Shown here: one piece after another, positions 471 through 30,354 of the stretch | Position numbering within the stretch: the first letter of the stretch is position 1 | Layout of the letters: every line of letters begins with the position of its first letter | Made by a program: the position numbers and the translations under genes | Notes under the pieces: generated by a model | Seen by the model: the letters and a program-made list of their open reading frames with translations, nothing else | What the model was told of the DNA's origin: nothing | Databases searched by the model: none | Assembly (NCBI RefSeq): GCF_001028665.1 | Contig: NZ_CP011503.1 | Coordinates: 3,286,001-3,350,000 of the forward strand | DNA length: 64,000 bases | Reading direction: 5' to 3' | From: Burkholderia pyrrocinia | GTDB lineage: Bacteria; Pseudomonadota; Gammaproteobacteria; Burkholderiales; Burkholderiaceae

Positions 471-488
471 TATCGTATCGGGAGTCGC

Positions 489-1628
489 GTGAAAAAGACA
501 AGCGGAATGTGGGCCATGCTGGGCGTATGGCTGTGCGGCTGGCTCGTGATCCATGCCGCGCAAGCGGACACGACGACCGTCACCGACCTGGCCGGGCGGC
601 AGGTCCGGATTCCCGCGCGCGTCGAGCGCGTGCTGCTTGGCGAGGGCCGCCTGCTGCCGGCGCTGGCGGTGGTCGACGGCGAAGATCCGACGCGCCGCCT
701 CGTGGGCATGATGGGTGATTTCGAGCAACTCGATCCCGCGAGCTACGCGCAATGGCTCGCGCGCTTCCCGCGCCTGAAGGATGTGCCGCGCATCGGACGC
801 TCGCAGTCCGGCAGCTTCAGCGACGAGCGCGCGCTCGCGCTGCGTCCGCAGGTCGCGATCTTCGGGCTCGGCGGCGGCCACGGCCCCGGCGAGCGCGATC
901 GCGAAACGCTCGCGCGGCTCGAGGCGGCCGGCGTCGCGATCGTGTTCGTCGACTTCCGGCACGACCCGCTCGCCAACACGCCGCGCAGCATCGCGCTGCT
1001 CGGCCAGGTGCTCGGCTCGCCGCAGCGCGCGACGGAATTCAACACGTACTGGCAGCAGCAGCTAGACCTCGTCCGCACGCGGCTCGCGACCGCACGCCCG
1101 GTCGCACCGAGCGTGTTCCTCGAAAGCCGTGTCGGCCTGTCGGGCGACTGCTGCGACACGATGACCGGCATGATGGGCCACCTGCTCGACGCCGCCGGCG
1201 GCAACAACGTCGCGAAAGGCCGCGTGCCCGGCGAGCATGGCACGCTGAACCCCGAATACCTGCTGAGCCGCCAGCCCGATTTCTACATCGGCACCGCGAT
1301 CGGCTCGCTCCAGACGCTGCAAAGTGCGCCGCAGCGCATCGCGCTCGGCGCCGGCGTGCCGCGCGACGCCGCCGTCCGCTCGCTCGACCGTGCGCTGAAG
1401 CGGCCGCAGATCGCGCCGCTGCGCGCGATCCGCGAGCGGCGCGCGTATGCGATCTGGCATCACTTCTACAATTCGCCGTTCAACGTCGTCGCCGTGCAGG
1501 CGCTGGCCAAGTGGCTGCATCCGGCGCTGTTCGCCGATCTCGATCCGCGCGCCACGTTCGACACGATGGTGCGACGCTTCCAGCCCGTTGCGCTGCAAGG
1601 CGAATACTGGGTGCAGGAAGGGTCCTGA
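489..1628 (+). CDS. Iron-siderophore ABC transporter, periplasmic binding protein
   Basis: 379 residues. It begins with a signal peptide (VKKTSG, then a hydrophobic run, cleavage expected near HAAQA-D) followed by a TVTDLAGRQVRIP strand typical of the FecB/BtuF-like class III binding proteins. It would deliver ferri-siderophore to the permease encoded two genes downstream. The GTG at 489 is preferred over longer upstream frames because a GGGAG ribosome site sits at 480-484 and the signal peptide starts there; upstream starts would run through the Fur box. The next gene begins one base after the stop. Substrate cannot be told from sequence. Confidence 0.85.
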   Translation: MKKTSGMWAMLGVWLCGWLVIHAAQADTTTVTDLAGRQVRIPARVERVLLGEGRLLPALAVVDGEDPTRRLVGMMGDFEQLDPASYAQWLARFPRLKDVPRIGRSQSGSFSDERALALRPQVAIFGLGGGHGPGERDRETLARLEAAGVAIVFVDFRHDPLANTPRSIALLGQVLGSPQRATEFNTYWQQQLDLVRTRLATARPVAPSVFLESRVGLSGDCCDTMTGMMGHLLDAAGGNNVAKGRVPGEHGTLNPEYLLSRQPDFYIGTAIGSLQTLQSAPQRIALGAGVPRDAAVRSLDRALKRPQIAPLRAIRERRAYAIWHHFYNSPFNVVAVQALAKWLHPALFADLDPRATFDTMVRRFQPVALQGEYWVQEGS

Positions 1629-1629
1629 C

Positions 1630-2571
1630 ATGCGGATGCCCGCCTCCTCCATGCGCCGCTCCCTGCTCGTCGCCGGATTGGCCGGCCCGCTCGGCGGCCG
1701 GCTCGCGCCCGCGTGTGCCGCCGATACGCGTGCGTGGCCCGGCCTCGACGCCGCACCGCCGGTCTTCGTGCCGAACAGCCGCCAGTTCGACGTGACGATC
1801 GCCGGCCGCACGCGGCGTCTGTTCGTCGCGTTGCCGGCCGAGCGTTCCGGCTCGCTGCCCCATCCGGTGCTCACCGTGCTCGACGGTAATGCGCTGTTCC
1901 CGCTCGCGGCACAACTCACCCGCAATCGCCGCGCGCGGCCGGACGGCACGCGCGACGCCGAGGCCGTCGTGATCGGCATCGGCTATCCGGTCGATGGGCC
2001 CTACGACATGGCCGCGCGCGCGGACGACTACACGCTCGCGCTGTTGCCGAACGGCCGCGGCGTCGTCGCGGACCGCTTTCTCGACTTCATCGAGTACGAC
2101 GTGCAGCCGTGGCTCGCCCGCCAGCTGCCGGTCGATCCCGAGCGGCAGACGCTGTTCGGCCACTCGTACGGCGGCCTGCTGACGCTGTACGCGATGCTCA
2201 CGCGCGCGCACCTGTTTCGGCGCTACGTGGCCGCAAGCCCGTCGATCTGGTGGGGCGAGCGCATGCTGCTGCCTTTTGCCGACCGGTTCGCCGCGCAAGC
2301 CGCCCCGCTAGCACCACCGCTGCGCGTCCTCGTGACCGCAGGCAGCCTCGAGGAAGATGCACCGAACCCCGACGCCGAACGGATGCGCCGCCAGCAAGCG
2401 CGCAAGCAGGTCAGTTCCGCCCGCGACTTCGTCGCGCGGGTGGGCGGCCGCCCAGGGCTCGACGCTGCGTTCCGGCTGATCGACGGCGAAGATCACGGCG
2501 GCGTCGTGCTGCCGAGCCTCGCGCTTGCGTCACGCGTGGTTTTCGAGCCCGCATCCGGAGCGGCCGCATGA
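1630..2571 (+). CDS. Alpha/beta-hydrolase, siderophore esterase-like
   Basis: 313 residues with an N-terminal export signal (MRMPASSMRRSLLVAGLAG). The fold is that of the IroE/Fes-type esterase (putative esterase, PF00756). The nucleophile elbow GHSYGG puts Ser at about residue 179, and GEDHGG near residue 289 supplies the likely catalytic His. Established role of the family: hydrolysis of ester siderophores to release iron, or trimming of them. It lies inside the Fur-controlled transport operon, one base after the binding protein and overlapping the permease by four bases (ATGA). Export suggests that it acts in the periplasm. An unrelated esterase is possible but the context argues against it. 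Confidence 0.75.
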   Translation: MRMPASSMRRSLLVAGLAGPLGGRLAPACAADTRAWPGLDAAPPVFVPNSRQFDVTIAGRTRRLFVALPAERSGSLPHPVLTVLDGNALFPLAAQLTRNRRARPDGTRDAEAVVIGIGYPVDGPYDMAARADDYTLALLPNGRGVVADRFLDFIEYDVQPWLARQLPVDPERQTLFGHSYGGLLTLYAMLTRAHLFRRYVAASPSIWWGERMLLPFADRFAAQAAPLAPPLRVLVTAGSLEEDAPNPDAERMRRQQARKQVSSARDFVARVGGRPGLDAAFRLIDGEDHGGVVLPSLALASRVVFEPASGAAA

Positions 2572-3632
2572 GCACGACGACACCCGTTTCATCGCCGTCG
2601 CTGCGACTTCGCTACCGCGCGGTCGCCGCGCGGCGTGTCGGTGCGCTGGCCGCGCTCGCAGGCGTGCTCGTCGCGCTGCTCGTCGTCGACGTCTCGACCG
2701 GCCCGTCGCCGTTCCCGGTCGCCGACCTGCTCGGCGGCCTGTTCCGGCCCGACGGGCTGCCGCTCGAACAGCGCGTGATCCTGTGGGACGTGCGCCTGCC
2801 GTATGCGCTGATGGCCGTGCTCGTCGGCGCGTCGCTCGGGTTCGCCGGCGCCGAAATGCAGACCGTGCTGAACAACCCGCTCGCGAGCCCGTTCACGCTC
2901 GGCATGTCGGCCGCCGCAAGCGTCGGCGCGTCGCTCGTCGTGATTTCCGGCTGGCACCTGGTGCTGTGGAACGAGAACGTCGCGCTGTCGCTCGGCGCGT
3001 TCGCGTGCGCGAGCGCCGCGACGCTGCTGATCGTCTGGCTCGCGTGGCGCCACGGCGCGACGACCGAGACCGTCGTGCTGTTCGGCATCGGCCTGATGTT
3101 CAGCTTCGAGGCCCTGCTGTGGCTGCTGCAGTTCATCGCCGACGCGAATGCGTTGCAGCAGATCGTGTTCTGGAGCATGGGCAGCCTGGCGCGCGCGACA
3201 TGGGGCAAGATCGTGCTGCTGACCTGCGTGTTCGCGACCTGCACGCTATGGGCGAGCATCGACGTCGCGTCGTTGACGGCGCTGCGCGCCGGCGACGAGC
3301 AGGCGCGCAGCATGGGCATCGCGGTCGAACGGCTGCGGCTCGTCGCGCTCGCGCGCATCAGCCTGCTGTCCGCGACGGCGCTGTCGTTCGTCGGCACGAT
3401 CGGTTTCGTCGGCCTCGTCGGGCCGCACGTCGCGCGGCTGCTGGTCGGCGACGAGCATCGCTACTACCTGCCGGGCGCGGCGCTCGCCGGCGCGATCATG
3501 CTGGCCGGCGCGTCCGTGCTCAGCAAGACGCTGATTCCCGGCGTGACGCTGCCGATCGGCATCATCACCGCGCTGGTCGGCGTGCCGCTGTTCATGCTGC
3601 TCGTCAGCCGGCGCAGGAGGCTCGATGGCTGA
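2568..3632 (+). CDS. FecCD-family iron-siderophore permease
   Basis: 354 residues, very hydrophobic, about nine to ten membrane segments. It shows hallmarks of FecCD/BtuC permeases: an early RLPYALMAVLVGASLGFAGAEMQ motif, the NPLASPFTLG stretch, and a late GTIGFVGLVGPHVAR loop that contacts the ATPase. It forms the inner-membrane channel with the ATPase that follows. The start overlaps the esterase stop (ATGA), and its own stop overlaps the ATPase start by 8 bp, so translation is probably coupled. One permease is present, so a homodimer is expected. Confidence 0.92.
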   Translation: MSTTTPVSSPSLRLRYRAVAARRVGALAALAGVLVALLVVDVSTGPSPFPVADLLGGLFRPDGLPLEQRVILWDVRLPYALMAVLVGASLGFAGAEMQTVLNNPLASPFTLGMSAAASVGASLVVISGWHLVLWNENVALSLGAFACASAATLLIVWLAWRHGATTETVVLFGIGLMFSFEALLWLLQFIADANALQQIVFWSMGSLARATWGKIVLLTCVFATCTLWASIDVASLTALRAGDEQARSMGIAVERLRLVALARISLLSATALSFVGTIGFVGLVGPHVARLLVGDEHRYYLPGAALAGAIMLAGASVLSKTLIPGVTLPIGIITALVGVPLFMLLVSRRRRLDG

Positions 3633-4434
3633 GCCGATGCTGCAACTCGACGCGCTGTGCGTCCGCTACGGCGCCCGGGTCGTGCTCGACGGGCTGTCGC
3701 TCGCGCCAGTCGAGCCGGGCACGACGATCGGGCTGCTCGGGCCGAACGGCGTCGGCAAGTCGACGCTGCTGCGCGCGCTTGCGCGGCTCGCGTCCGCGAC
3801 CGGTCGCGCGGCATTCGGCAGCTTCGACCTGCTGTCCGGGTCGCGCCGCGAGCACACGCGGCAGGTCGGTTATCTGCCTCAGACCTTGCCGCAACCGTCG
3901 TCACTGCTCGTCTACGAAGCCGTGCGCAGCGCGTTGCGCGCCACCTGCGGCAGCCTGTCCGACGCGACGCACGACCGGCGTTTGCAACAGGTGTTCACGC
4001 GGCTGCGGCTGCACCCGCTCGCGATGTCGCCGCTCGACCGGTTGTCGGGCGGCCAGCGGCAGATGGTCGGGCTCGCGCAGGTGCTCGTGCGCGACACGCC
4101 GCTGCTGCTGCTCGACGAACCGACCAGCGCGCTCGACCTGCGCTGGCAATTGCTCGCGCTGGAGGCGGTCGGCGACGCGGCCCGCCGGCGCGGCGCAATC
4201 GTGCTGGCCGCGATGCACGACCTGAATCTCGCATCGCGTTTCTGCGACCGGCTCGTGCTGCTGAGCGCCGACGGACTCGTCGCGGACGGCGCGCCGGTCG
4301 ACGTGCTGACGCCGCCGAACCTGCGGCGCGCGTACCGCGTCGATGCAAGGATCGAGCGCACGGCGTCGGGCGATTACGTCGCGCTGGCGGAGCGGGCGAT
4401 TCCGGACGAGCCAGCGCTTGCTTGCGACGCTTGA
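3625..4434 (+). CDS. Iron-siderophore ABC transporter ATP-binding protein
   Basis: 269 residues, FecE/FhuC-like ATPase that powers the permease. Visible motifs are Walker A GPNGVGKST at about residues 39-47, the signature LSGGQRQ near 139-145, Walker B LLLLDEPTSALDL near 158, and the H-loop His in AAMHDLNLA. Length is usual for the family. It is the last gene of the operon; the 140 bp that follow hold no gene or clear terminator. Confidence 0.93.
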   Translation: MAEPMLQLDALCVRYGARVVLDGLSLAPVEPGTTIGLLGPNGVGKSTLLRALARLASATGRAAFGSFDLLSGSRREHTRQVGYLPQTLPQPSSLLVYEAVRSALRATCGSLSDATHDRRLQQVFTRLRLHPLAMSPLDRLSGGQRQMVGLAQVLVRDTPLLLLDEPTSALDLRWQLLALEAVGDAARRRGAIVLAAMHDLNLASRFCDRLVLLSADGLVADGAPVDVLTPPNLRRAYRVDARIERTASGDYVALAERAIPDEPALACDA

Positions 4435-4574: not shown

Positions 4575-5150
4575 ATGTCCATTCGCCTCAGTTTCGACGA
4601 CGGCCCGGGCCCGTCGACACCACCCTTGCTCGACGTCCTGCGCGACGCCTCGTGCAAGGCGACCTTCTTCCTGCTCGGCCAGAACCTCGCGGGCGCGCTC
4701 GACGTCGCGGCAAGAATGGCGCGCGAGGGTCATCGGCTCGGCAATCACACCCATTCGCACGCAAGGCCGGGCGCGCTGGCAGACGACGCGCTGATCGACG
4801 AGATCGAGGCGACCGACGCGCTGATTCGCGAGGCCTATCGCCGGGCCGGCGTACCCGCACCGGACGCGATCCCGCTGCGCCTGCCTTACGGGCTGGTACC
4901 GCAGGACAATCGCGTCGGCGTGCTCACGCGGCTGCAGCGCGAACACACGGGCTGGACCGCGATACTGGACGACTGGCAGCGGCCAGCACCGTCGCCCGAG
5001 GCACTGTGCGACGCGATGCGCGCGCATGTCGCCGACAGCGCAGCGCGGCACCAGGACGTGCTGTTCTGCATGCACGACGGATCGCGGCATGGAGAAGCGC
5101 GGCCCAATACGGTCGAAGCCGTGCGCCTGTTCCTGAATCGACAGAACTGA
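4575..5150 (+). CDS. Polysaccharide deacetylase (NodB-type) domain protein
   Basis: 191 residues. NodB motif 1 is FDDGP at residues 7-11 (catalytic Asp and metal-binding Asp) and motif 2 is HTHSH at 58-62 (metal-binding His pair). This carbohydrate esterase 4 family removes N- or O-acetyl groups from sugars. No signal peptide is visible, so it may be cytosolic and act on a small sugar intermediate rather than on the wall. It is short for the family and close to a single catalytic domain. It converges with the phosphotransferase that ends 13 bp further on and may belong with the accessory cluster to its right. Confidence 0.8.
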   Translation: MSIRLSFDDGPGPSTPPLLDVLRDASCKATFFLLGQNLAGALDVAARMAREGHRLGNHTHSHARPGALADDALIDEIEATDALIREAYRRAGVPAPDAIPLRLPYGLVPQDNRVGVLTRLQREHTGWTAILDDWQRPAPSPEALCDAMRAHVADSAARHQDVLFCMHDGSRHGEARPNTVEAVRLFLNRQN

Positions 5151-5162
5151 CCCGGTGGCCGG

Positions 5163-6128
5163 CTAGCGTCCAGGCGCCGCGCCGTCCAGCAACTGCCGCC
5201 AGCCACCGAGAAATCCGATGCCGGGCCCCGGCATCCACAGGCCGCGCTGCGCGGCTTCGAGGTGGATCAGCGTCTGGTCCACGCAGAACAGCGCCATCAA
5301 CGCATCGCGATTCGCGCGCATCCAGTCCGGCGCAGCATCGGGTCGCGTCGCTGCATAGGCTTGCAGGCCGGCCTCCCATCGCTGTGCATCGAAGACGAAT
5401 CGATCGTCCCTGCCCGCATCGCGCGACAGCGCGAACAGCGCAAAGGCCGCCTCGAGCCACTGCGCGCCCTGCCCGACATCGTCGAAATCGAGCACGCCGC
5501 TCACCGCACGCCCCACGTACAGCAGGTTGCCCGCGTGATAGTCGCCGTGCAGCCAATGCACCGACCCCGTCAGCCAGCGCGCCGCCGCGGCGAGATGCAT
5601 GCCGATCCGCCGGATCACCGTGTCGTAATGGCCATTCAAGTCGCCCGGCAACGACGGCATCGCGCGCGCCGACACACGCGCATGGCGCGCCGCCAACCAG
5701 GCCATCGGCGCGGATTCGCTCACTGGGATTGCCGCCAGCGCCGCATGCAGATGCGCGAGCGCGCGCATCGCATCGATCGCACCCGCTTGCGCATCGTCGG
5801 GCAGGCCGGGGCTGCCGTCGATATGCTCGAACAGGTGCAGCCAGCTTCCATCGGGGGCCTGCACACCGGATTGCGCGTCCACGGTCGGCCGCAGTCGCGG
5901 CAGCGCGGGCAGCATCGGCGCCGTGCGCGAACGGCCGAGATCGCCGAGTATCGACGCCTCGCGATGCACCTGCTCGACCGGCTTGCCGGACCACGACACG
6001 CGCAGCACCACGCGCTCCGAATCGCACTCGACGAGATACGTTTTGTTAGTATGGCCCGACGACAGCGCCTGCAGGCGCGCCGGCCCGAGGTTCCAGTGCC
6101 GGCGAAGCCAGGGTTCCAGCGTTTTCAC
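5163..6128 (-). CDS. Aminoglycoside phosphotransferase-fold kinase
   Basis: 321 residues from the GTG at 6128. The kinase catalytic loop HGDYHAGNLL (about 194-203) and the Mg-binding DFDD (214-217) place it in the APH/choline-kinase family, which phosphorylates small hydroxyl compounds. GTG at 6128 is preferred over ATG at 6155 because AGGAG lies four bases upstream and the longer form would overlap the divergent gene starting at 6154. Substrate unknown: a resistance kinase or a tailoring enzyme of the adjacent cluster are both possible. Confidence 0.78.
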   Translation of the reverse strand: MKTLEPWLRRHWNLGPARLQALSSGHTNKTYLVECDSERVVLRVSWSGKPVEQVHREASILGDLGRSRTAPMLPALPRLRPTVDAQSGVQAPDGSWLHLFEHIDGSPGLPDDAQAGAIDAMRALAHLHAALAAIPVSESAPMAWLAARHARVSARAMPSLPGDLNGHYDTVIRRIGMHLAAAARWLTGSVHWLHGDYHAGNLLYVGRAVSGVLDFDDVGQGAQWLEAAFALFALSRDAGRDDRFVFDAQRWEAGLQAYAATRPDAAPDWMRANRDALMALFCVDQTLIHLEAAQRGLWMPGPGIGFLGGWRQLLDGAAPGR

Positions 6129-6153
6129 GTCACTCCTACTCGTTGCATTGACC

Positions 6154-6843
6154 ATGTCAGAGCGTCCTTCGGCCCGCATGCGGGACATCAACATCGAATG
6201 GCTGACGCGCGCTGCCGAATTCGACCATCTGTTCCAGACGCGCTGGCTCGGCGAGCGCTTCTTCCATCTGCCCGGCGACATGCTCGCGCTCCAGGAACTG
6301 ATCTGGCGCGAGCGCCCCGACTGCATCGTGCAGACCGGCATCGCGGCGGGCGGCGGCGTCGTGTTCTCCGCGTCGATGCTGGAATTGGCAGGCGATCGCG
6401 GCCGCGTCGTCGCGATCGAACCGCGCCTGCGCGACGAGGTCAGGCAGCGCCTGCAATCGCACCGGCTCGCCGATCGCATGGTGCTGATCGAAGGCGAATC
6501 GTGCGCGGCCGACACGCTCGCGTCGGTGCGCGCACAGATCGCCGACGGCGCGCGCGTGATGGCGATCCTCGATCTCACGCATACGCACGCGCACGTGCTG
6601 CGCGAACTCGAATGCTATGCATCCCTCGTCACGCCCGGCAGCTACGCGATCGTGATGGACACCATCATGGAGTATCTGCCGGCATCGATGTTCGACGGCA
6701 AGCCGTACGGCAAAGGCAACAACCCGGCGACGGCCGCGCGCGAATTTCTCGCCCGCGACGACCGCTTCGAAGTCGACGAGGACATCGAGGATCGCGTGCT
6801 CATGACGCTGTCGCCAGGCGGCTTCCTGAGGCGAGTTCGCTGA
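6154..6843 (+). CDS. CmcI-like cephalosporin hydroxylase/O-methyltransferase family protein
   Basis: 229 residues. The CIVQTGIAAGGGVVFSASML stretch near residues 56-75 fits the SAM-binding loop of the CmcI/rhamnosyl O-methyltransferase family, and VMDTIMEYLP near 163 is the usual later motif. Members methylate sugar or antibiotic hydroxyls. Its start is divergent from the kinase gene (25 bp apart, leaving little room for separate promoters), and its 3' end overlaps the oppositely transcribed glycosyltransferase by 44 bp. No strong ribosome site precedes ATG 6154; ATG 6178 is an alternative start. Confidence 0.78.
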   Translation: MSERPSARMRDINIEWLTRAAEFDHLFQTRWLGERFFHLPGDMLALQELIWRERPDCIVQTGIAAGGGVVFSASMLELAGDRGRVVAIEPRLRDEVRQRLQSHRLADRMVLIEGESCAADTLASVRAQIADGARVMAILDLTHTHAHVLRELECYASLVTPGSYAIVMDTIMEYLPASMFDGKPYGKGNNPATAAREFLARDDRFEVDEDIEDRVLMTLSPGGFLRRVR

Positions 6844-8005
6844 TCAGGCGGGCAGCCTGCGCCGAGCCGTCGAGCGTGTAGCTCGCACGGATTCGCGCCG
6901 CGTGCTCGCGCAGCGGGCCGGGACGCAACAGGCGTTCGAGCGCAGCGGTAATGCCGGCGACGCCGGCCTGCTGCAGATCCAGCACGCATCCGGCGCCGGC
7001 CCGCTCGACGAAGTGCGCCGAATGGAACTGGTCGTTGCAGAACGGCGACAGCAGCATCGGCACACCGCACGCGAGCGACTCCATCACCGAATTCGCGCCG
7101 CCGTGGCTGACGAACGCGTGCGTGCGCCGCAGCAGCGCCAGTTGCGGCACATAACGCACCGCGACGACGCGCTCGTCATCGGCCGGCAGCAGATCCGAAT
7201 CGACCAGTTCGCCCACCGACAGCACCAGTTGCGCCGACGTCGCGCGCGTCGCGTCGATGACCTTCGCGAACACGTCCGGGTGGTAGTAAAGCTGGCTGCC
7301 GAGCGACATGTAGACGAGCGGGCGATCCGCGTCGAGGCGTTCCCACGGGAACGGCGTCTCGTCGCCGCGCGGGCCGGACGGCAGCGCGGGGCCGACCAGC
7401 TCGACACCCGGCGGCGGCGCGCCGACCAGCGCGTCGGTCGTGAACGCGAGCGTCAGATGCGGCGACAGGATGTCGCAACCGCGAAAACGCGCGTCGAGAC
7501 CGTAGCGCGCGAACAGGCGCGTGCGTTCCGGCGCGAGCCAGCGCACGGTGCGCAGCAGCTCCGAATCGAGATCGTCCGGCAGCACCGGATTCAGCGAATT
7601 GGACATCGACACCCACGGCAGCCCTTCCAGCTCGGCGGCGATCGCCGCCGCATAGAGCAGCGGATCGATCACGACCACGTCGGGCTGCCATTCGCGCAGC
7701 ACCGCGCGGATGCCGTCCACCTGCGCGGGCGCGAGGTCGATCAGCAGCGTGCGGATCCAGTGCCGCAGCCAGTCGGCGTCGCGGATGTTCGCGGCGAAGC
7801 TCGCGCCGCGCGACAGGTCGTGGCGTTCGGGGGTCTCGCGCGGCCCGACGAACGCGAAGTCGCCAGCGCCGTCGAGTTGCGCGCTGATGTCGGCCGGCGC
7901 GTAGAACGCGACGTCGCAGCCGGCGGCACGCAGATGCTGGGCCGGGCCGATGCACGGATTGACGTGCCCTTTTTCGGGCACCACGCAGAACAGGATGCGT
8001 TTCAT
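6800..8005 (-). CDS. GT-B glycosyltransferase (MGT/UGT type)
   Basis: 401 residues. The N-terminus MKRILFCVVPEKGHVNP has the acceptor-domain HVNP motif of macrolide/UDP-glucuronosyl glycosyltransferases, and HGGANSVMESLACGVPMLL near 299-317 is the donor-binding signature with HGG. It should move a sugar from an NDP-sugar to a small-molecule acceptor. ATG 8005 is chosen because it sits seven bases after the stop of the preceding gene; an upstream in-frame ATG would overlap that gene. It is the last gene of the five-gene leftward operon and overlaps the convergent CmcI-like gene by 44 bp. Confidence 0.85.
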   Translation of the reverse strand: MKRILFCVVPEKGHVNPCIGPAQHLRAAGCDVAFYAPADISAQLDGAGDFAFVGPRETPERHDLSRGASFAANIRDADWLRHWIRTLLIDLAPAQVDGIRAVLREWQPDVVVIDPLLYAAAIAAELEGLPWVSMSNSLNPVLPDDLDSELLRTVRWLAPERTRLFARYGLDARFRGCDILSPHLTLAFTTDALVGAPPPGVELVGPALPSGPRGDETPFPWERLDADRPLVYMSLGSQLYYHPDVFAKVIDATRATSAQLVLSVGELVDSDLLPADDERVVAVRYVPQLALLRRTHAFVSHGGANSVMESLACGVPMLLSPFCNDQFHSAHFVERAGAGCVLDLQQAGVAGITAALERLLRPGPLREHAARIRASYTLDGSAQAARLISELASGSRLATAS

Positions 8006-8012
8006 GAGCGGC

Positions 8013-9080
8013 TCAGGTTGGGCGATGCGCGGCATCGAAGTGGAAGTGGTCGAGATGATCGAGGAGCAGCGTCAGCGTCGCCCACAGCACGCGTTCGGTA
8101 TCCGCCTGCAGCGTGGGCGCGGCAAGACCGAGCGTGCCGGCGAGCGCGCGCGTGCGGTCGCGATCGAGCAGTGTCGTGAGGTCCATTGCCGGCGCGAGCC
8201 GCCCGCGCTTGGGGCCGTGCACGAGACGGTCCGGCAGGTTCAGGCGCGCACCGAGATCGCGCAGGCATTGTTTGTTCAGGTCGGGTTCGATGCTCGTCAG
8301 ATGCGCGACGACGGCGGCGTCGACAAACGGCGGATGCAGGTCGACCGACGCCGCATCGAACAACGCATGGCACAGCGGCAGGTAGTTGGCCGACCGGTCG
8401 CGGCGCAGCACCTGGTCCGCGCCGTCGCCGGTGATGGCCACCTCGATGCCGTCGGCGGCCATCGCCTCGGCCAGCAGCAGCTTCGCGACCGGATGCAGGT
8501 TGAACATCGGCTCCTCGACCGCATGGGTCGTTCTCGGCAGCGCGGCCACGAAATCGGCCTCGTTCGCGCGCACGATCTTCACCGTCGCCTGCATCTGCTC
8601 GGCCAGTTCGAGTGCCGCATCGCGTTCGCAATAGTCCGGCATGTCGGTCGCGAGGATGTAGGACGTGACATGCCGCTGCGCGCCGAGTTCGCGCAGCAAC
8701 GCGAGCAGCAGCGCCGAATCGAGCCCGCCGCTCAGCGCCAGCGCGACGCGCTTGCCGCTGTCGAGCGCGCGTTGCAGCGATGCGCGCAGCACGGTTTCCA
8801 GATCGCCGCGCTGCGGCCGCTCGGGCGCCGGCTGCACCGCGAACCCTTGCGGCGAACGGATCAGCGCATGGCCGGGCGGCACCGGCAGCACGTCGCGCAG
8901 CACGGTGCGACCGACGGGACGCTCGCCGCTCAGGTAGCCCGCGATGGCGGCCGTGTCCGGCGCGCCGGCCGGTTGCCCCGACGCATGCAGGACGGCCCTG
9001 ATGCCGGACGCCGACACGCCGCTGCGCGGATGGTAGTGCAGACGATCGAAACCGAACGGGTCGCGCGTGCCGACGATCAT
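8013..9080 (-). CDS. Asparagine synthetase-like ATP-dependent amide synthase lacking the glutaminase half
   Basis: 355 residues. The synthetase domain is clear: PP-loop SGGLDS at 117-122 and a later GDGADQVL motif. The N-terminus starts directly at RDPFGFDRLHYH (6-17), which aligns with the RDRFGIKPLYY strand late in the AsnB glutaminase domain; the first 150 or so residues, including the catalytic Cys2, are absent. Known relatives without glutaminase activity (beta-lactam and carbapenam synthetases, lasso cyclases) adenylate a carboxylate and close an amide with an amine. A similar intra- or intermolecular amidation is inferred here. The start overlaps the radical SAM stop (ATGA). Confidence 0.82.
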   Translation of the reverse strand: MIVGTRDPFGFDRLHYHPRSGVSASGIRAVLHASGQPAGAPDTAAIAGYLSGERPVGRTVLRDVLPVPPGHALIRSPQGFAVQPAPERPQRGDLETVLRASLQRALDSGKRVALALSGGLDSALLLALLRELGAQRHVTSYILATDMPDYCERDAALELAEQMQATVKIVRANEADFVAALPRTTHAVEEPMFNLHPVAKLLLAEAMAADGIEVAITGDGADQVLRRDRSANYLPLCHALFDAASVDLHPPFVDAAVVAHLTSIEPDLNKQCLRDLGARLNLPDRLVHGPKRGRLAPAMDLTTLLDRDRTRALAGTLGLAAPTLQADTERVLWATLTLLLDHLDHFHFDAAHRPT

Positions 9081-9955
9081 GGATAACGAGCCTTCAAGGT
9101 GTCCACTTCAATACGTTTGAGGATGCGATGCGGCGCCACCGGCGCGCTGCCGCCCTGGCAATGCAGGCACGCTTCCAGCGGCGCCTCGCGTTGCAGATAG
9201 GCGAGCATCGCGTCGAGCATGCCTGCGTCGTCGCGCAACGGCAGGCCGTCGGATTGAAAATCCTTCGCGCCCTTGTACAGCGTATGGAAATGCGCGGGAC
9301 GCGTACACGTGTAGAACATGCCGTCGCGAATCATATGGCAGCGCTCGCGGATCCAGCAATCGCGATAGAGGCGCTGCGCATCATCGCGGTCCGTGCCGGG
9401 CTGGGCGCGATTCATCGTCGTGAACACGTCTTGCACCTTCCAGTTCAGGCGGACGTCGAAGCGCGCGGCCTGGCGCTCGACAAGCGCGACCAGGTCGGGC
9501 GAAAGCGGCGGCTTCGGGTAGCGCGAGATCGTCAACGCATCCACCGCCTGCCAGAACGCGTCCGGCATCTCGCCGAGCTTCAGGCCGTTCGTCGTGACCG
9601 AGATCACGGGTGCGATGCCCGTGGCGCGCACGCGCTCGACGAGCTCGACGAGCGCCGGATGCAGCAGCGGTTCGCCGCCGACCAGCTTGAACATGCGCGG
9701 GCTCAAGACCTTCGCTGCTTTGCGCAGGTCGGCCTCTAGCGAATCGGGGCTCGCATACCACTCGGGCAACAGCGGCGACAGCGAGCAGCATTCCGCGCAG
9801 GTCAGGTTGCAGTGATCGACGATATGCGCTTCCAGCGAACGCGTCCGGACGCGGCCGTCTTCGACGCGATAGTCGCGATCCATCGGCGGCGGGAAGACAT
9901 GTTGCCGCTCGCCGGATGGCAGCGGGTTCGTGGCCCGGTTCAGATTCGCATTCAC
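9077..9955 (-). CDS. Radical SAM enzyme
   Basis: 292 residues from the GTG at 9955. The 4Fe-4S motif CNLTCAEC is at 49-56, followed by a further Cys57, and the SAM-binding GGEP at 93-96. A late CLHCQGG could hold a second cluster or an iron site. The sequence around HCNLTCAECCSLSP resembles radical SAM proteins found in sugar and antibiotic gene clusters. Two GTG starts are possible (9976 and 9955); AGGAAG seven bases before 9955 and the one-base gap after the kinase stop favour 9955. Likely role: epimerisation, dehydrogenation or carbon-skeleton change of the pathway intermediate. Confidence 0.85.
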   Translation of the reverse strand: MNANLNRATNPLPSGERQHVFPPPMDRDYRVEDGRVRTRSLEAHIVDHCNLTCAECCSLSPLLPEWYASPDSLEADLRKAAKVLSPRMFKLVGGEPLLHPALVELVERVRATGIAPVISVTTNGLKLGEMPDAFWQAVDALTISRYPKPPLSPDLVALVERQAARFDVRLNWKVQDVFTTMNRAQPGTDRDDAQRLYRDCWIRERCHMIRDGMFYTCTRPAHFHTLYKGAKDFQSDGLPLRDDAGMLDAMLAYLQREAPLEACLHCQGGSAPVAPHRILKRIEVDTLKARYP

Positions 9956-9956
9956 A

Positions 9957-10952
9957 TCAGCTTCCTGTTTCCACACAACGGGAAAAGAAATCGACGAGAC
10001 GGCCGCGCGCGTCCACCATCGCGGACGCCATCGTCACCGCCCCGTTCAGGTGCGCGGCGAAGCGCGACGGATCGTCGAACCAGCCTTGCACGACCCACAA
10101 CTTGAGCGCGTGCTGCAGACACGCGGCATCGACGGCCCACGCGATATGCGCGGGATTCACCGGCCGGACCCGCCGGTATGCATGCACGAAGGCTTCCGCC
10201 AGGTGTGGCGCTTCCAGCGGCAGATGATTCAGGCAACGCACCAGCTCGTATTCGCGCGGCGCGCCGATCGACGCTTCCCAGTCGAGGATGAGCGGCGGCG
10301 TGCGCGCGTCCGCGAACAGGTAGTTGAACTGGTTGTAGTCATTGTGGATCGGGTGCTGCGGATCGTCGGCGGGAAATGCTTCGACGCTGCCCGGATAGTA
10401 GCGGTCGATCATGCGCAGCGCGAGCTCGACATAGCGCCGCAGGTTCGCGGCGCCGTCGTTCGAGCGCGCGCGATCCCGCGCGTCGAGCAGGCTGCGGCGC
10501 ACCGCGTCCGCGTCGATCGCGGTCAGCCGCGCGCGGATCGTGTCGAGCGACGGCAGATGAAACCGTTCGAGGCTCAAATGCAACGCCGCCAGACTCGCGC
10601 CGAGCGCATCCCATTCCGCCGGCGAAAACGTGTCGTAAGTTCTGAACTGCCCCGCTTCCCAGCGCGTCAGCATCGCGTGCGCGCCGGTGCCGGTCCACAG
10701 CGGTTCGCCGGCCGTCGTGCGTTTCAGCGTCTGGACACGGAAGCGAGCATCACCGTGCGTCTCGAAATGGGCGAGTACGGCGGCTTCCTTGGCCGCACGC
10801 GCACGATGCTCCTGCGCATAGAGCTTGACCGCCACGCCGCCGTCGTCGGTCGGCAGATGCCACACGCGTTCGCCGACCTGCCGCGGCGGCCCGCTTTGGC
10901 CGAGCGCGTAGGCGTCGCGGATCTCGTCGAAGGTGACGGCGGGCTGATCCAT
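9957..10952 (-). CDS. APH/RdoA-type small-molecule kinase
   Basis: 331 residues. The catalytic loop reads HNDYNQFN (203-210) in place of the common HGDxxxxN, and LDWE (223-226) replaces the DxD motif. The same His-Asp-Asn geometry is kept, as in homoserine-kinase-II/RdoA-like members, so phosphotransfer is plausible. The start codon directly follows the FkbM stop and the gene ends one base before the radical SAM start, so it is translationally coupled within the operon. Substrate unknown; it could activate an intermediate or protect the producer. Confidence 0.78.
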   Translation of the reverse strand: MDQPAVTFDEIRDAYALGQSGPPRQVGERVWHLPTDDGGVAVKLYAQEHRARAAKEAAVLAHFETHGDARFRVQTLKRTTAGEPLWTGTGAHAMLTRWEAGQFRTYDTFSPAEWDALGASLAALHLSLERFHLPSLDTIRARLTAIDADAVRRSLLDARDRARSNDGAANLRRYVELALRMIDRYYPGSVEAFPADDPQHPIHNDYNQFNYLFADARTPPLILDWEASIGAPREYELVRCLNHLPLEAPHLAEAFVHAYRRVRPVNPAHIAWAVDAACLQHALKLWVVQGWFDDPSRFAAHLNGAVTMASAMVDARGRLVDFFSRCVETGS

Positions 10953-11702
10953 TCAGATGTGCTCGGCCGGCCCGTGCCGATACGGATGACCGCTCAGGAA
11001 CGTGTTGTGCCCGACGTAGCGCAGCTTGTACATCGCCGGCCGGAACAGCACCGAAGGATCGTTGTTCGCGATGCCGAGCAGCGGGTACAGGTCCTGCCGC
11101 ACGAAGAATGCGTTGTTGCCCATGTCGTCGCAGCAGACGAGCTCATAGCCCTTCTGCCTGCCGAGATGAACGAGCGATTCGAGGCTCGCGCCGTAATAGG
11201 TCGATCCGTCCCATTCGTGATCCGGATTGAAGCACATGACCCAGCGTTCGGGCGGCGTGTAGTACGGGTTGTATTCGATCACGACGATGCGCGGCTGAAA
11301 CGCCTGCAGGCCGCGCCACACCCAGTAGTCGTTGCCGTCGATATCGATCGACAGCAGGTCGAAGTCGGCCGGCGTGTTCGCATCGGCGAGCAACGCGTCG
11401 ATCGTGTCGGGCTGGACGCGGTCGTGGTGCAGACGCACGCGCTCCGCGCCCGCGTAGTGAGCGGCAAGCTTGCCGAAGCGGTACGCGCTGCCTTCCACCA
11501 GCACGCCCGCCCAATCCTGTTCACGCAGCAGCCGCGCGGTGTTGCTGTTGCGCAAGCCGTCGCTCGCGCCGATGTCGACGCAGAAGCGATTCGTCGGCGC
11601 GATCCGCTCCATCAGCCGCGCCAGGATGCTTTCCTCGGTGCCCTGCGCGTACAGGCTTGGCGCAAGGCCGGATAGATCGAGCGGGAGAGGATGGTCCTGC
11701 AT
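10953..11702 (-). CDS. FkbM-type SAM-dependent methyltransferase
   Basis: 249 residues. SAM motif I is FCVDIGASDG at 40-49; the acidic DLLSIDIDGNDYWVW stretch near 116-130 is typical of FkbM methyltransferases, which O-methylate sugars or polyketides. It is the first gene of the leftward operon. GGAG lies about ten bases upstream of the ATG at 11702. The terminator of the upstream ybiT gene separates it from the next transcription unit, so the operon promoter should lie between 11703 and 11830. Confidence 0.8.
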   Translation of the reverse strand: MQDHPLPLDLSGLAPSLYAQGTEESILARLMERIAPTNRFCVDIGASDGLRNSNTARLLREQDWAGVLVEGSAYRFGKLAAHYAGAERVRLHHDRVQPDTIDALLADANTPADFDLLSIDIDGNDYWVWRGLQAFQPRIVVIEYNPYYTPPERWVMCFNPDHEWDGSTYYGASLESLVHLGRQKGYELVCCDDMGNNAFFVRQDLYPLLGIANNDPSVLFRPAMYKLRYVGHNTFLSGHPYRHGPAEHI

Positions 11703-11833
11703 CGAGGGGCGGCTCCGGGTCGGGATGGGGAATGGGGATTGGTGTTCGGAGGGTAATTTACCCGAAGTCGATTGATGGGAGGAAACTGGAATGCGCGACG
11801 CTGCCGGGCTTGGCCGGCGGCGGAAATGAAAAA

Positions 11834-11863
11834 GCCCGCATCGACATTGCTGTCGATGCGGGC
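11834..11863 (-). terminator. Intrinsic terminator downstream of ybiT
   Basis: A perfect 13-bp stem (arms 11834-11846 and 11851-11863) with a four-base loop is followed on the minus strand by a run of five T. It lies 84 bp past the ybiT stop and shields the methyltransferase operon from read-through. Confidence 0.9.
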
Positions 11864-11946
11864 CTGATGCGTTTCTGGCGGTTTCGCTTTATGTGCTCGG
11901 CTTCGTATTGTCTAGCCGCGGCGCATGAACGGAAGCCTCAGGACAA

Positions 11947-26941: not shown

Positions 26942-28303
26942 TTACACCTCGCCCCACAGATCGTGACCGTCTGCGCCCGTGATCTTCACGGACACGAAAT
27001 CACCGACCTTGTAGCGCTTCGATGCCTTCGTCGCCGGCTCGACATAGACGACGCCATCGATCTCCGGCGCATCGGCTGCCGTGCGGCCGATGCCGCCTTC
27101 TTCGCTGACTTCGTCGATCAGCACCTTGAGGGTCTTGCCGACCTTGCGCTGGATGCGGTTCGCCGACACTTCCTCGGCGACTTCCATGAAGCGCGCGCGG
27201 CGCTCTTCCCGGACATCGTCGGGCAGCGCGCCGTCCAGTTCGTTCGCGGTCGCACCTTCGACCGGCGAATACGCGAAACAGCCGACGCGATCGAGTTCCG
27301 CCTCGCGGATGAAGTCGAGCAGCGTTTCGAACTGCTCTTCCGTCTCGCCGGGGAAGCCCGCGATGAACGTGCTGCGGATCGTCAGGTCCGGGCAGATCTC
27401 GCGCCACTTCTGCACGCGCTCGAGCACCTTCTCGGCGTTCGCGGGACGCTTCATGCGCTTCAGCACGTCGGGGTGCGCGTGCTGGAACGGCACGTCGAGA
27501 TACGGCAGCACGTGGCCCTTGAACGGACCTTCGGCCATCAGCGGAATCACTTCGTCGACGCTCGGATACGGATACACGTAGTGCAGGCGGACCCACGCGC
27601 CGTACTGCGCGGCGAGTTCGCCGAGCGCGGCGACCAGGTCGGTCATGCGCGTCTTGATCGGCTTGCCGTTCCAGAAGCCCGTGCGGTACTTCACGTCGAC
27701 GCCGTACGCGCTCGTGTCCTGCGAGATCACGAGCAGTTCCTTCACGCCCGACTTGAACAGGTTCTCGGCTTCCAGCATCACTTCGGCGACCGGACGCGAC
27801 ACGAGATCGCCGCGCATCGACGGGATGATGCAGAACGTGCAGCGATGGTTGCAGCCTTCGGAGATCTTCAGGTACGCGTAGTGGCGCGGCGTGAGCTTGA
27901 TGCCGGCCGCGGGCACGAGGTCGACGAACGGGTCGTGCGGCTTCGGCAGGTGCGAATGCACGGCCTGCATCACTTCGCCCACCGCGTGCGGGCCAGTGAC
28001 GGCGAGCACCTTCGGATGGACTTCCTCGATCAGGTTCGAGCCGCTGGCGCTCGACTTCGCGCCGAGGCAGCCGGTGACGATCACCTTGCCGTTCTCGGTC
28101 AGCGCTTCGCCGATCGCGTCGAGGCTTTCCTGCACGGCTTCGTCGATGAAGCCGCAGGTGTTCACGACGACGAGGTCGGCGCCGTCGTAGGTGCCGGAGA
28201 TTTCATAACCTTCGGCGCGCAACTGGGTGATGATTTGTTCGGAGTCGACTAACGCTTTCGGGCAACCAAGCGAAACGAACCCTACTTTAGGGGATTGGGA
28301 CAT
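26942..28303 (-). CDS. rimO: Ribosomal protein S12 methylthiotransferase RimO
   Basis: 453 residues. Order of domains: UPF0004 with Cys residues (GCPKA, NTCGF, GCLGA), radical [11 protein letters not shown] near 150, and a C-terminal TRAM domain. It methylthiolates Asp of ribosomal protein S12. The first 13 codons of this copy also exist, with synonymous changes only, in an orphan copy at 30591-30629. The start region and upstream DNA therefore probably came with the element described at 28266-30590, which means its promoter may be replaced. Confidence 0.95.
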
Positions 28304-29403: not shown

Positions 29404-30354
29404 ATGAATGACGAAAACCGGCTTGTTGACGAAGAAAACAACCAAGACATTTCCACTGCCGTCGCCCAGACAACGAATTGGCCTGCAATTGCCACGTTCA
29501 ATGGGAAGTTGTACTTGGTACACAAAGCTCAAGGTAGTACAAAAATGCAGTACCAAACATATGATGGTACGACCTGGACGCGCCCTGCCCCGGTCAACAA
29601 CATCGACACGACCAATCAAGCCATTGCATTAGCAGCACTCAACAATAATCTGTATATGGCTCACAAAAGTTCCGGGACCGACACCCAAGTTTATTACAAC
29701 TCAACCAATGGCACACAATGGGGGAATGACAGGGGCGTTCAGAATTGCAGAAGCGACAATCCGGTCGCACTGACGTATTTCAAGACGAAGCTGTACCTGG
29801 CGTTCAAACAGGCCTCCGGCACCAACATTTACACCACGACATTCGACGGCTCGAGCTGGGCGCCATCGCCGAACCAAGTCCTCTCGGGCGTCGCCAGGAC
29901 CACCCAGGCGGTTGCATTGGCCGCATTTGGCACGAAGTTGTACTTGGCGCATAAAGGGGCCACCGACTCCAAAATTTTCTACACGTCGTCATCCGATGGC
30001 ATTAACTGGGCAACGGAGAATATCGTACGACCCGAAATTGTCTCGACCAACGTGCCTGTTGCAATGGCGGCATTCAACGGGAATCTTTACCTGGCGTATA
30101 AAGGTGCCCCCGACTCCAACAACAACATCTATTACACATGGACCTCGGATGGTGTTAACTGGCAATTCCCGCGGGAACTTCTCCTGGGTGTTGCCCAGAC
30201 CACCGAACCGGTTTCATTGACTGTGTTTAACAACACTCTTTATTTGGTGCACCAAAGCGCCTCCGACTCGAGCATTTTTTACACGTCGACGTCCGATGGC
30301 GTTAACTGGCAACTGGAGCAACCGATCCCCTATGCATCAATGGAAGAACAATGA
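29404..30354 (+). CDS. Six-repeat beta-propeller, lectin-like protein
   Basis: 316 residues, no signal peptide or membrane segment. Six tandem repeats of about 48 residues run from residue 20 to near the end; each has a core like AxAAFNGKLYLAHKG and a second strand like IFYTSTSDGVNW. One repeat per blade predicts a six-bladed propeller. Aromatic and Trp positions recur, as in sugar-binding propellers, but it is not the short AAL/RSL type. GAGGG lies seven bases before ATG 29404. Codon use is clearly more A/T-rich than that of the neighbours, which suggests transfer. Ligand and export route unknown. Confidence 0.72.
   Translation: MNDENRLVDEENNQDISTAVAQTTNWPAIATFNGKLYLVHKAQGSTKMQYQTYDGTTWTRPAPVNNIDTTNQAIALAALNNNLYMAHKSSGTDTQVYYNSTNGTQWGNDRGVQNCRSDNPVALTYFKTKLYLAFKQASGTNIYTTTFDGSSWAPSPNQVLSGVARTTQAVALAAFGTKLYLAHKGATDSKIFYTSSSDGINWATENIVRPEIVSTNVPVAMAAFNGNLYLAYKGAPDSNNNIYYTWTSDGVNWQFPRELLLGVAQTTEPVSLTVFNNTLYLVHQSASDSSIFYTSTSDGVNWQLEQPIPYASMEEQ

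Follow-up and report, generated by a model that had tools for sequence, protein, structure and literature searches.

What could be made by eight abutting genes that encode a glycosyltransferase (GT), a carbohydrate de-N-acetylase, a radical S-adenosylmethionine (SAM) enzyme, a shortened AsnB-like synthetase, two methyltransferases, and two APH-fold kinases? Assigned by their Pfam families, these genes touch or overlap their neighbors across positions 4575-11702 of the Burkholderia pyrrocinia DNA analyzed here (64,000 nucleotides of NZ_CP011503.1, positions 3,286,001 to 3,350,000; referred to below as the window), which lies on contig 1 of a four-contig, 7.96-Mb genome. A first-pass annotation had named the same genes and families, and all were recovered, the radical SAM enzyme by its fold and the others by Pfam. 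At just under even confidence, we read the block as a biosynthetic unit complete in itself that makes an aminosugar-type small molecule, the enzyme roles proposed below included.

Co-inheritance of the eight-gene block

When genome contigs were scanned with the radical SAM protein as the query, 33 loci were returned, and gene order was recounted by script in 30 relatives (L003 to L030 plus L049 and L050, the last two from the genus of a Luteibacter metagenome-assembled genome [MAG]). In 28 of the 30, all eight genes are present and neither their order nor their orientation differs; the other two loci (L016 and L030) are cut by contig ends. The carriers are Burkholderia, Paraburkholderia, Trinickia, Chitinasiproducens, Bordetella, Achromobacter, a proteobacterial MAG (L029), and the sources of L049 and L050, and the nearest named relatives by locus are Burkholderia (e.g., B. 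cepacia, B. lata, and B. cenocepacia). The overlap between the GT and CmcI-family genes keeps its length in 27 of 28 relatives even though protein identity drops to about 60%.

Genome-wide presence was counted in 65 Burkholderia genomes for three of the eight genes: the radical SAM gene is present in 31, and the short AsnB and FkbM genes are present in the identical 31. Both counts speak for the block as one unit, and the scattering in other genomes that the first-pass annotation had set against its own proposal was not seen within Burkholderia, where it was looked for. Among 399 genomes sampled from the order, the radical SAM gene had two matches, the window's own and one that is 33% identical (L036), with no further cluster gene in the 3.7 kb examined at the latter. 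All eight genes are under purifying selection (median omega per gene, 0.08 to 0.26; 16 Burkholderia relatives), and their divergences are correlated (r, 0.91 to 0.98; 26 loci), as shared ancestry alone would also bring about. Taken together, these results strongly support a compact, co-inherited gene set. The NodB-like de-N-acetylase gene, which had been placed at the border of the set, does adjoin it but belongs inside the block, outside positions 5163 to 11702.

Two further genome sets yielded relatives of the radical SAM enzyme, a phylum set built around a Kofleriaceae MAG (6 of 282 genomes) and a set built around a Planctomycetota MAG (7 of 294 genomes), counts that include genomes already known from the first contig scan. 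Family profiles were run over the stretches fetched at 14 distant radical SAM places (L033, which resembles L034, was not included). Nine of these hold a GT1 gene (L035, L051, L060, L061, L062, L073, L074, L075, and L079), and all nine also hold U270, a family without assignment, and PIG-L, the N-acetylglucosamine (GlcNAc)-phosphatidylinositol de-N-acetylase family. Eight of the nine have a short AsnB, none being detected in L074. Five (L051, L061, L062, L073, and L074) carry a full AsnB; the remaining four carry an AMP-forming ligase, and the two never occur together. No other cluster gene was detected at L063, L076, L077, and L078 in the 19.9, 19.9, 3.2, and 9.2 kb examined, respectively, and the 3.9-kb contig L064 carries the radical SAM and CmcI genes only. 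A kinase identity was not demonstrable for U270. Near the AMP-forming ligase in L035, L060, and L079 lies a further family, U188 (about 190 to 230 amino acids), two scanned members of which have no Pfam match.

Enzymes of the block

The radical SAM enzyme scores 28 bits against the Pfam Radical_SAM profile, just below the 29.5 cutoff, and its family was settled by fold; residues 1 to 23 of its structure model are of low confidence. The CX3CX2C SAM-cluster motif is present in 31/31 loci, the window included, and an auxiliary set of four cysteines (C207-X16-C224-X42..46-C270-X2-C273) recurs in 40/40 aligned proteins; by homology, these four probably act as cluster ligands of a twitch-type enzyme. 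Over 264 aligned positions, the protein is 37% identical to an enzyme encoded on a Streptomyces sp. SAT1 plasmid (L101:5251-6282) and annotated "radical SAM protein." The neighbors of the SAT1 gene, which include predicted APH(7'')-Ia, AroB/2-deoxy-scyllo-inosose (DOI)-synthase-like, and GmhA-like genes as well as aminotransferases, suggest that it encodes HygY of a hygromycin-B-like cluster. Both proteins have the same SAM-cluster motif and the same cysteine before a histidine, with C213 of the block enzyme aligning with C183 of the SAT1 enzyme, and C213 is invariant in the 40-sequence alignment and in 15/15 cluster-borne radical SAM proteins with the region covered. In HygY itself, Cys183 serves as the hydrogen donor of the epimerase reaction.

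SpeY, of the spectinomycin pathway, is a twitch radical SAM dehydrogenase. Its structures (PDB 7wzv, 7wzx, and 7x0b) have no cysteine at the C213 position, which fits a dehydrogenase there versus a predicted epimerase in the block. According to one paper, Cys249 supplies a hydrogen in the radical SAM epimerase NeoN, and the title of the HygY paper cited there states that a single-cysteine mutation uncovers dehydrogenase activity (PMC10991966). These alignments suggest that the block enzyme is a HygY-type sugar epimerase. Differences from the HygY-like system are also apparent. Directly after CX3CX2C, the block enzymes carry a cysteine (C64; window 9785-9787, minus strand) that is absent from both the SAT1 protein and SpeY. 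They also have CWxRxRC where the HygY-like SAT1 protein has CxIAHVWRC. The block contains nothing equivalent to the AroB/DOI-synthase-like, aminotransferase, and GmhA-like genes of the HygY-like cluster, and one of the two SAT1 GTs (L101:4401-5240) was compared with the block GT and showed no similarity to it.

The short AsnB is glutaminase-less, as had been claimed: in model alignments, it begins at residue 133 of Escherichia coli AsnB, inside the glutaminase domain, and at residues 130 of beta-lactam synthetase and 115 of CarA. Its model (predicted local distance difference test score, 93.7) matches the synthetase parts of all three proteins. The SGGLDS and GDGADQ motifs are present in 30/31 loci, the remaining one being truncated by its contig, and the SGGxDS loop together with the synthetase fold places the protein in the AsnB superfamily of PP-loop ATP pyrophosphatases. 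Relative to AsnB, beta-lactam synthetase, and CarA, with which it shares 17 to 19% identity, approximately the first 115 to 132 residues are missing, including the N-terminal cysteine, and all 31 loci lack a cysteine close to where the aligned segment begins. Whereas beta-lactam synthetase and CarA are full-length proteins with a glutaminase-derived N-terminal domain, the short AsnB lacks that part; among the 120 relatives listed, most are about 340 to 365 amino acids long. A glutamine-hydrolyzing asparagine synthetase was ruled out, since there is no N-terminal glutaminase domain with a catalytic cysteine. Because beta-lactam synthetase and CarA make amides without glutamine, the short AsnB is likeliest to be an ATP-driven amide synthase that uses an amine.

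A second, full-length AsnB gene lies between the short AsnB and GT genes in L029, L049, and L050, and its first part is visible in L030, where the contig breaks off; in Trinickia (L026), a full AsnB gene sits beyond the NodB-like gene. A full AsnB that is 66 to 67% identical to that of L029 is encoded elsewhere in the genome in 4 of the 65 Burkholderia genomes, all four of them block positive, and none was found at an E value of 1e-100 in 27 of the 31 block-positive genomes. In three of the four (L086, L087, and L088), the sequence after the AsnB stop codon is similar to the 5' end of the cluster GT gene, with an ATGA stop/start overlap as in L029 (local scores of 60, 43, and 58 against maxima of 26, 28, and 29 in 50 shuffles); in the fourth (L085), the similarity is within chance (24 versus 33). 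The remnant in L086 spans 9499-9386. The presence of a GT-start remnant beside the relocated gene indicates that the full AsnB gene once stood upstream of a GT gene and later moved out.

The GT1 protein is closest to UGT/MGT-type enzymes and carries the motifs GHxNP (28/29 loci) and HGGANxxME (29/29 loci). The best solved relatives of the NodB-like protein are peptidoglycan GlcNAc deacetylases, and its FDDGP and NHTHSH-type motifs are present in 29/29 and 26/29 loci, respectively. Since NodB here and PIG-L in the distant clusters are both GlcNAc deacetylase families, the use of PIG-L in place of NodB suggests an N-acetylaminosugar, which we propose. Both families of the aminoglycoside sequence of GT and then de-N-acetylase are present, with UDP-GlcNAc as the proposed substrate. 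Transfer from UDP-GlcNAc followed by de-N-acetylation is also the work of BtrM/BtrD, NeoM/NeoL, and, alongside the radical SAM enzyme PtmC, PtmJ/PtmG of the pactamycin pathway. Two papers state that GenM1 transfers GlcNAc and GenD deacetylates afterwards in gentamicin synthesis (PMC12689558) and that a pactamycin cluster unites radical SAM enzymes, a glycosyltransferase, and sugar-modifying enzymes (PMC13402214). A GT, a de-N-acetylase, and a sugar-type radical SAM enzyme, accompanied by APH-fold kinases, likewise occur in the block, a likeness to the GenM1/GenD type that was drawn by families alone, but its eight products include no cyclitol-forming enzyme, aminotransferase, or dehydrogenase. 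A 2-deoxystreptamine aminoglycoside cluster was rejected for lack of a DOI synthase, which was looked for in the eight products and not elsewhere in the genome.

Both motifs sought in the FkbM-family methyltransferase were found in 31/31 loci, the window included, and the CmcI-family protein weakly resembles the cephalosporin hydroxylase CmcI. APH1 has the H-N/D-D-x-x-x-F-N loop in 30/31 loci and a D-W/F-D/E motif in 27/31, while APH2 has HGDxHxxN in 29/29 loci and a second motif in 27/29. Among solved structures, APH2 has one marginal relative and APH1 and FkbM have none.

Gene boundaries and surroundings

The leftward run consists of the FkbM, APH1, radical SAM, short AsnB, and GT1 genes, beyond which the CmcI (plus), APH2 (minus), and NodB-like (plus) genes alternate in strand (Table 1). 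Spacings within the run are 0, -20, -4, and +7 nt. The gaps or overlaps of at most seven bases described in the first-pass annotation therefore hold for three junctions and fail at APH1/radical SAM, where the 20-nt overlap depends on an uncertain radical SAM start (GTG at 9976). For the CmcI gene, 6154 is the probable start: in 7/7 Burkholderia relatives shown, although not in the window itself, a stop codon lies in frame 5' of this ATG. Of 20 loci examined, motif search placed the start in 17 (the window among them), and 16 of these have CATG there. A hairpin after the upstream ABC-F gene weakly supports the idea that the leftward run could start its own transcript; 2 terminator-like sites were found, versus 3.7 expected by chance.

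TABLE 1 Features of the block and of its upstream flank, in window positions
Feature	Position	Strand	Details
FkbM-family methyltransferase	10953..11702	-	249 aa; first of leftward run; PF05050, 3.6e-8
APH1, APH-fold kinase	9957..10952	-	331 aa; PF01636, 3.1e-12
HygY/SpeY-type twitch radical SAM enzyme (predicted)	9077..9976	-	299 aa; start uncertain (GTG 9976)
Short AsnB-like synthetase without front of glutaminase domain	8013..9080	-	355 aa; Asn_synthase
GT1 (UGT/MGT-type) glycosyltransferase	6800..8005	-	401 aa; PF00201, 2.2e-19
CmcI/rhamnosyl-O-methyltransferase family methyltransferase	6154..6843	+	229 aa; RMNT_CmcI PF04989, 4.5e-61; start inferred
Tail-to-tail GT/CmcI overlap	6800..6843		44 nt; 44 nt in 27/28 relatives, 47 in one
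CATG common to likely CmcI (+) and APH2 (-) starts	6153..6156		From translations
APH2, APH-fold kinase	5163..6155	-	330 aa; PF01636, 1.4e-19 on shorter version; start inferred
NodB-like carbohydrate de-N-acetylase	4575..5150	+	191 aa; PF01522 (polysaccharide deacetylase), 2e-22
Terminator-like hairpin after upstream ABC-F gene	11832..11865	-	15 pairs

On the NodB side, window positions 480-4434 hold genes for a FecB-type binding protein, an esterase, a FecCD permease, and an ATP-binding cassette ATPase, i.e., a siderophore/heme-type uptake operon; such Fec genes adjoin the block in just 7 of the 30 relatives. Farther away lie a RimO-like gene (26942-28303; judged by eye) and an open reading frame (ORF) with repeated LYLxHK-like units in a patch of low G+C content (about 0.55), propeller-like by eye (29404-30354). 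In L049, a nonribosomal peptide synthetase-like ORF (by eye) and another GT-like ORF are found upstream of the block (L049:2289-7535).

Proposed pathway and rival explanations

The product that we propose would be a glycosylated, de-N-acetylated, epimerized, O-methylated, and phosphorylated amide. Gene content, co-inheritance, selection, family, fold, and catalytic motifs were established by computation; all substrates, the GlcNAc donor, the step order, and the epimerase outcome are inferred. GT1 would attach a sugar, most likely GlcNAc, to a small acceptor, and the NodB-like enzyme would deacetylate that sugar at its nitrogen. At one carbinol carbon in the glycoside, the radical SAM enzyme would abstract a hydrogen and return another from Cys213 on the opposite face, giving an epimerization like that of HygY. 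The short AsnB would adenylate a carboxylate with ATP and couple it to the substrate's amine without glutamine, FkbM and CmcI would methylate hydroxyls, and the two APH-fold kinases would phosphorylate an intermediate or the product, for activation or self-protection; the order of these steps is not readable from the genes. The glycosylated, methylated amide of the first-pass annotation fits the families but is unproven; the PIG-L genes of the distant clusters, the aminoglycoside-type (HygY/SpeY) radical SAM enzyme, and the former second full AsnB go beyond it.

Several points weigh against an aminosugar-type small molecule. The product is not known, the donor sugar of GT1 is not predictable, and no acceptor-making enzyme, transporter, or regulator is found within the block. 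The kinases, FkbM, and CmcI are without a close solved relative, and the radical SAM enzyme is just 31 to 37% identical to characterized types. C213 also occurs in the L036 and L063 enzymes, for which the sequence examined shows no further cluster genes, and the additional invariant C64 of the 16 cluster-borne radical SAM proteins listed has no assigned role. Since U270 occupies the place expected of a kinase but is unproven as one, phosphorylation is no demonstrated core step.

The main rival, which we consider rather unlikely, is that the enzymes decorate a surface glycan or glycolipid, modifying a sugar of lipopolysaccharide, exopolysaccharide, or a lipid-linked glycan, with no free small molecule being made. 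A comparable combination counts both for this explanation and against ours: a paper on a Rubrivivax exopolysaccharide cluster describes AsnB-type asparagine synthase (wbpS), CapK, glycosyltransferase, and polysaccharide deacetylase genes and mentions FkbM once, but the term radical SAM has 0 occurrences in it (PMC3684757). Four of the distant clusters carry an AMP ligase that resembles CapK/PaaK (the CapK likeness is by eye), NodB and peptidoglycan deacetylase relatives work on polymers, and patchy presence in 31 of 65 Burkholderia genomes also suits surface variation. No flippase, polymerase, or polyprenyl-phosphate transferase was found among the eight products, however, although the enzymes may decorate a glycan made elsewhere, and the sole GT of the block is of the UGT/MGT type. 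The closest solved radical SAM enzyme and the closest plasmid-borne one both belong to aminoglycoside pathways.

A conserved metabolite kept inside the cell, a glucosaminide amide that the producer itself would use, be it as a redox buffer like mycothiol or bacillithiol, an osmolyte, or a cofactor, seems improbable. Mycothiol and bacillithiol are made by a GT, a de-N-acetylase, and a ligase, a scheme that the block matches; a PIG-L of one distant cluster weakly resembles BshB1 (E value, 1e-4), and the block has no exporter. Presence in about half of one genus and rarity in the order sample (2/399, one being the window's own) argue against such a role, as do the two methyltransferases and two kinases, which have no known part in the thiol schemes. 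That the block is no single pathway but a resistance or detoxification island of independent modifiers (the MGT-type GT, APH kinases, and methyltransferases) is very improbable: the MGT and APH families do include antibiotic-inactivating enzymes, with all matches below curated cutoffs, but three of the genes share one distribution, order and overlaps are fixed, and the radical SAM and AsnB enzymes are central. We give hardly any credence to a pathway for a ribosomally synthesized and posttranslationally modified peptide, in which an AsnB-type cyclase and the twitch radical SAM enzyme would act on an overlooked small precursor. For a lasso peptide or a similar product, the eight products include no peptidase, and 4575-11702 leaves no free space, although small ORFs were not sought in the flanks.

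The first-pass annotation knew of no described pathway with this set, and no description of the gene combination was found in open-access papers, the subscription literature being mostly beyond reach. Somewhat short of even confidence, we further propose that the aminosugar-type block represents an undescribed natural-product family in Proteobacteria, Planctomycetota, Myxococcales, and Kofleriaceae relatives: a de-N-acetylated glycoside on which a HygY-like radical SAM enzyme would act as the epimerase and to which the glutamine-independent short AsnB would add an acyl group, with a second full AsnB or an AMP-forming ligase adding an activated group in some lineages. The relocated full AsnB genes, three of them with a GT-start remnant, form an unusual evolutionary record. 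The block also offers testable enzymology, in that its predicted HygY-type epimerase has a marked hydrogen-donor cysteine and a further invariant cysteine and its putative amide synthase is under purifying selection despite the loss of the first part of its glutaminase half. If the proposal is true, these eight genes would constitute a compact pathway type that works without a polyketide or peptide synthetase and places aminoglycoside-type enzymes in Gram-negative bacteria.

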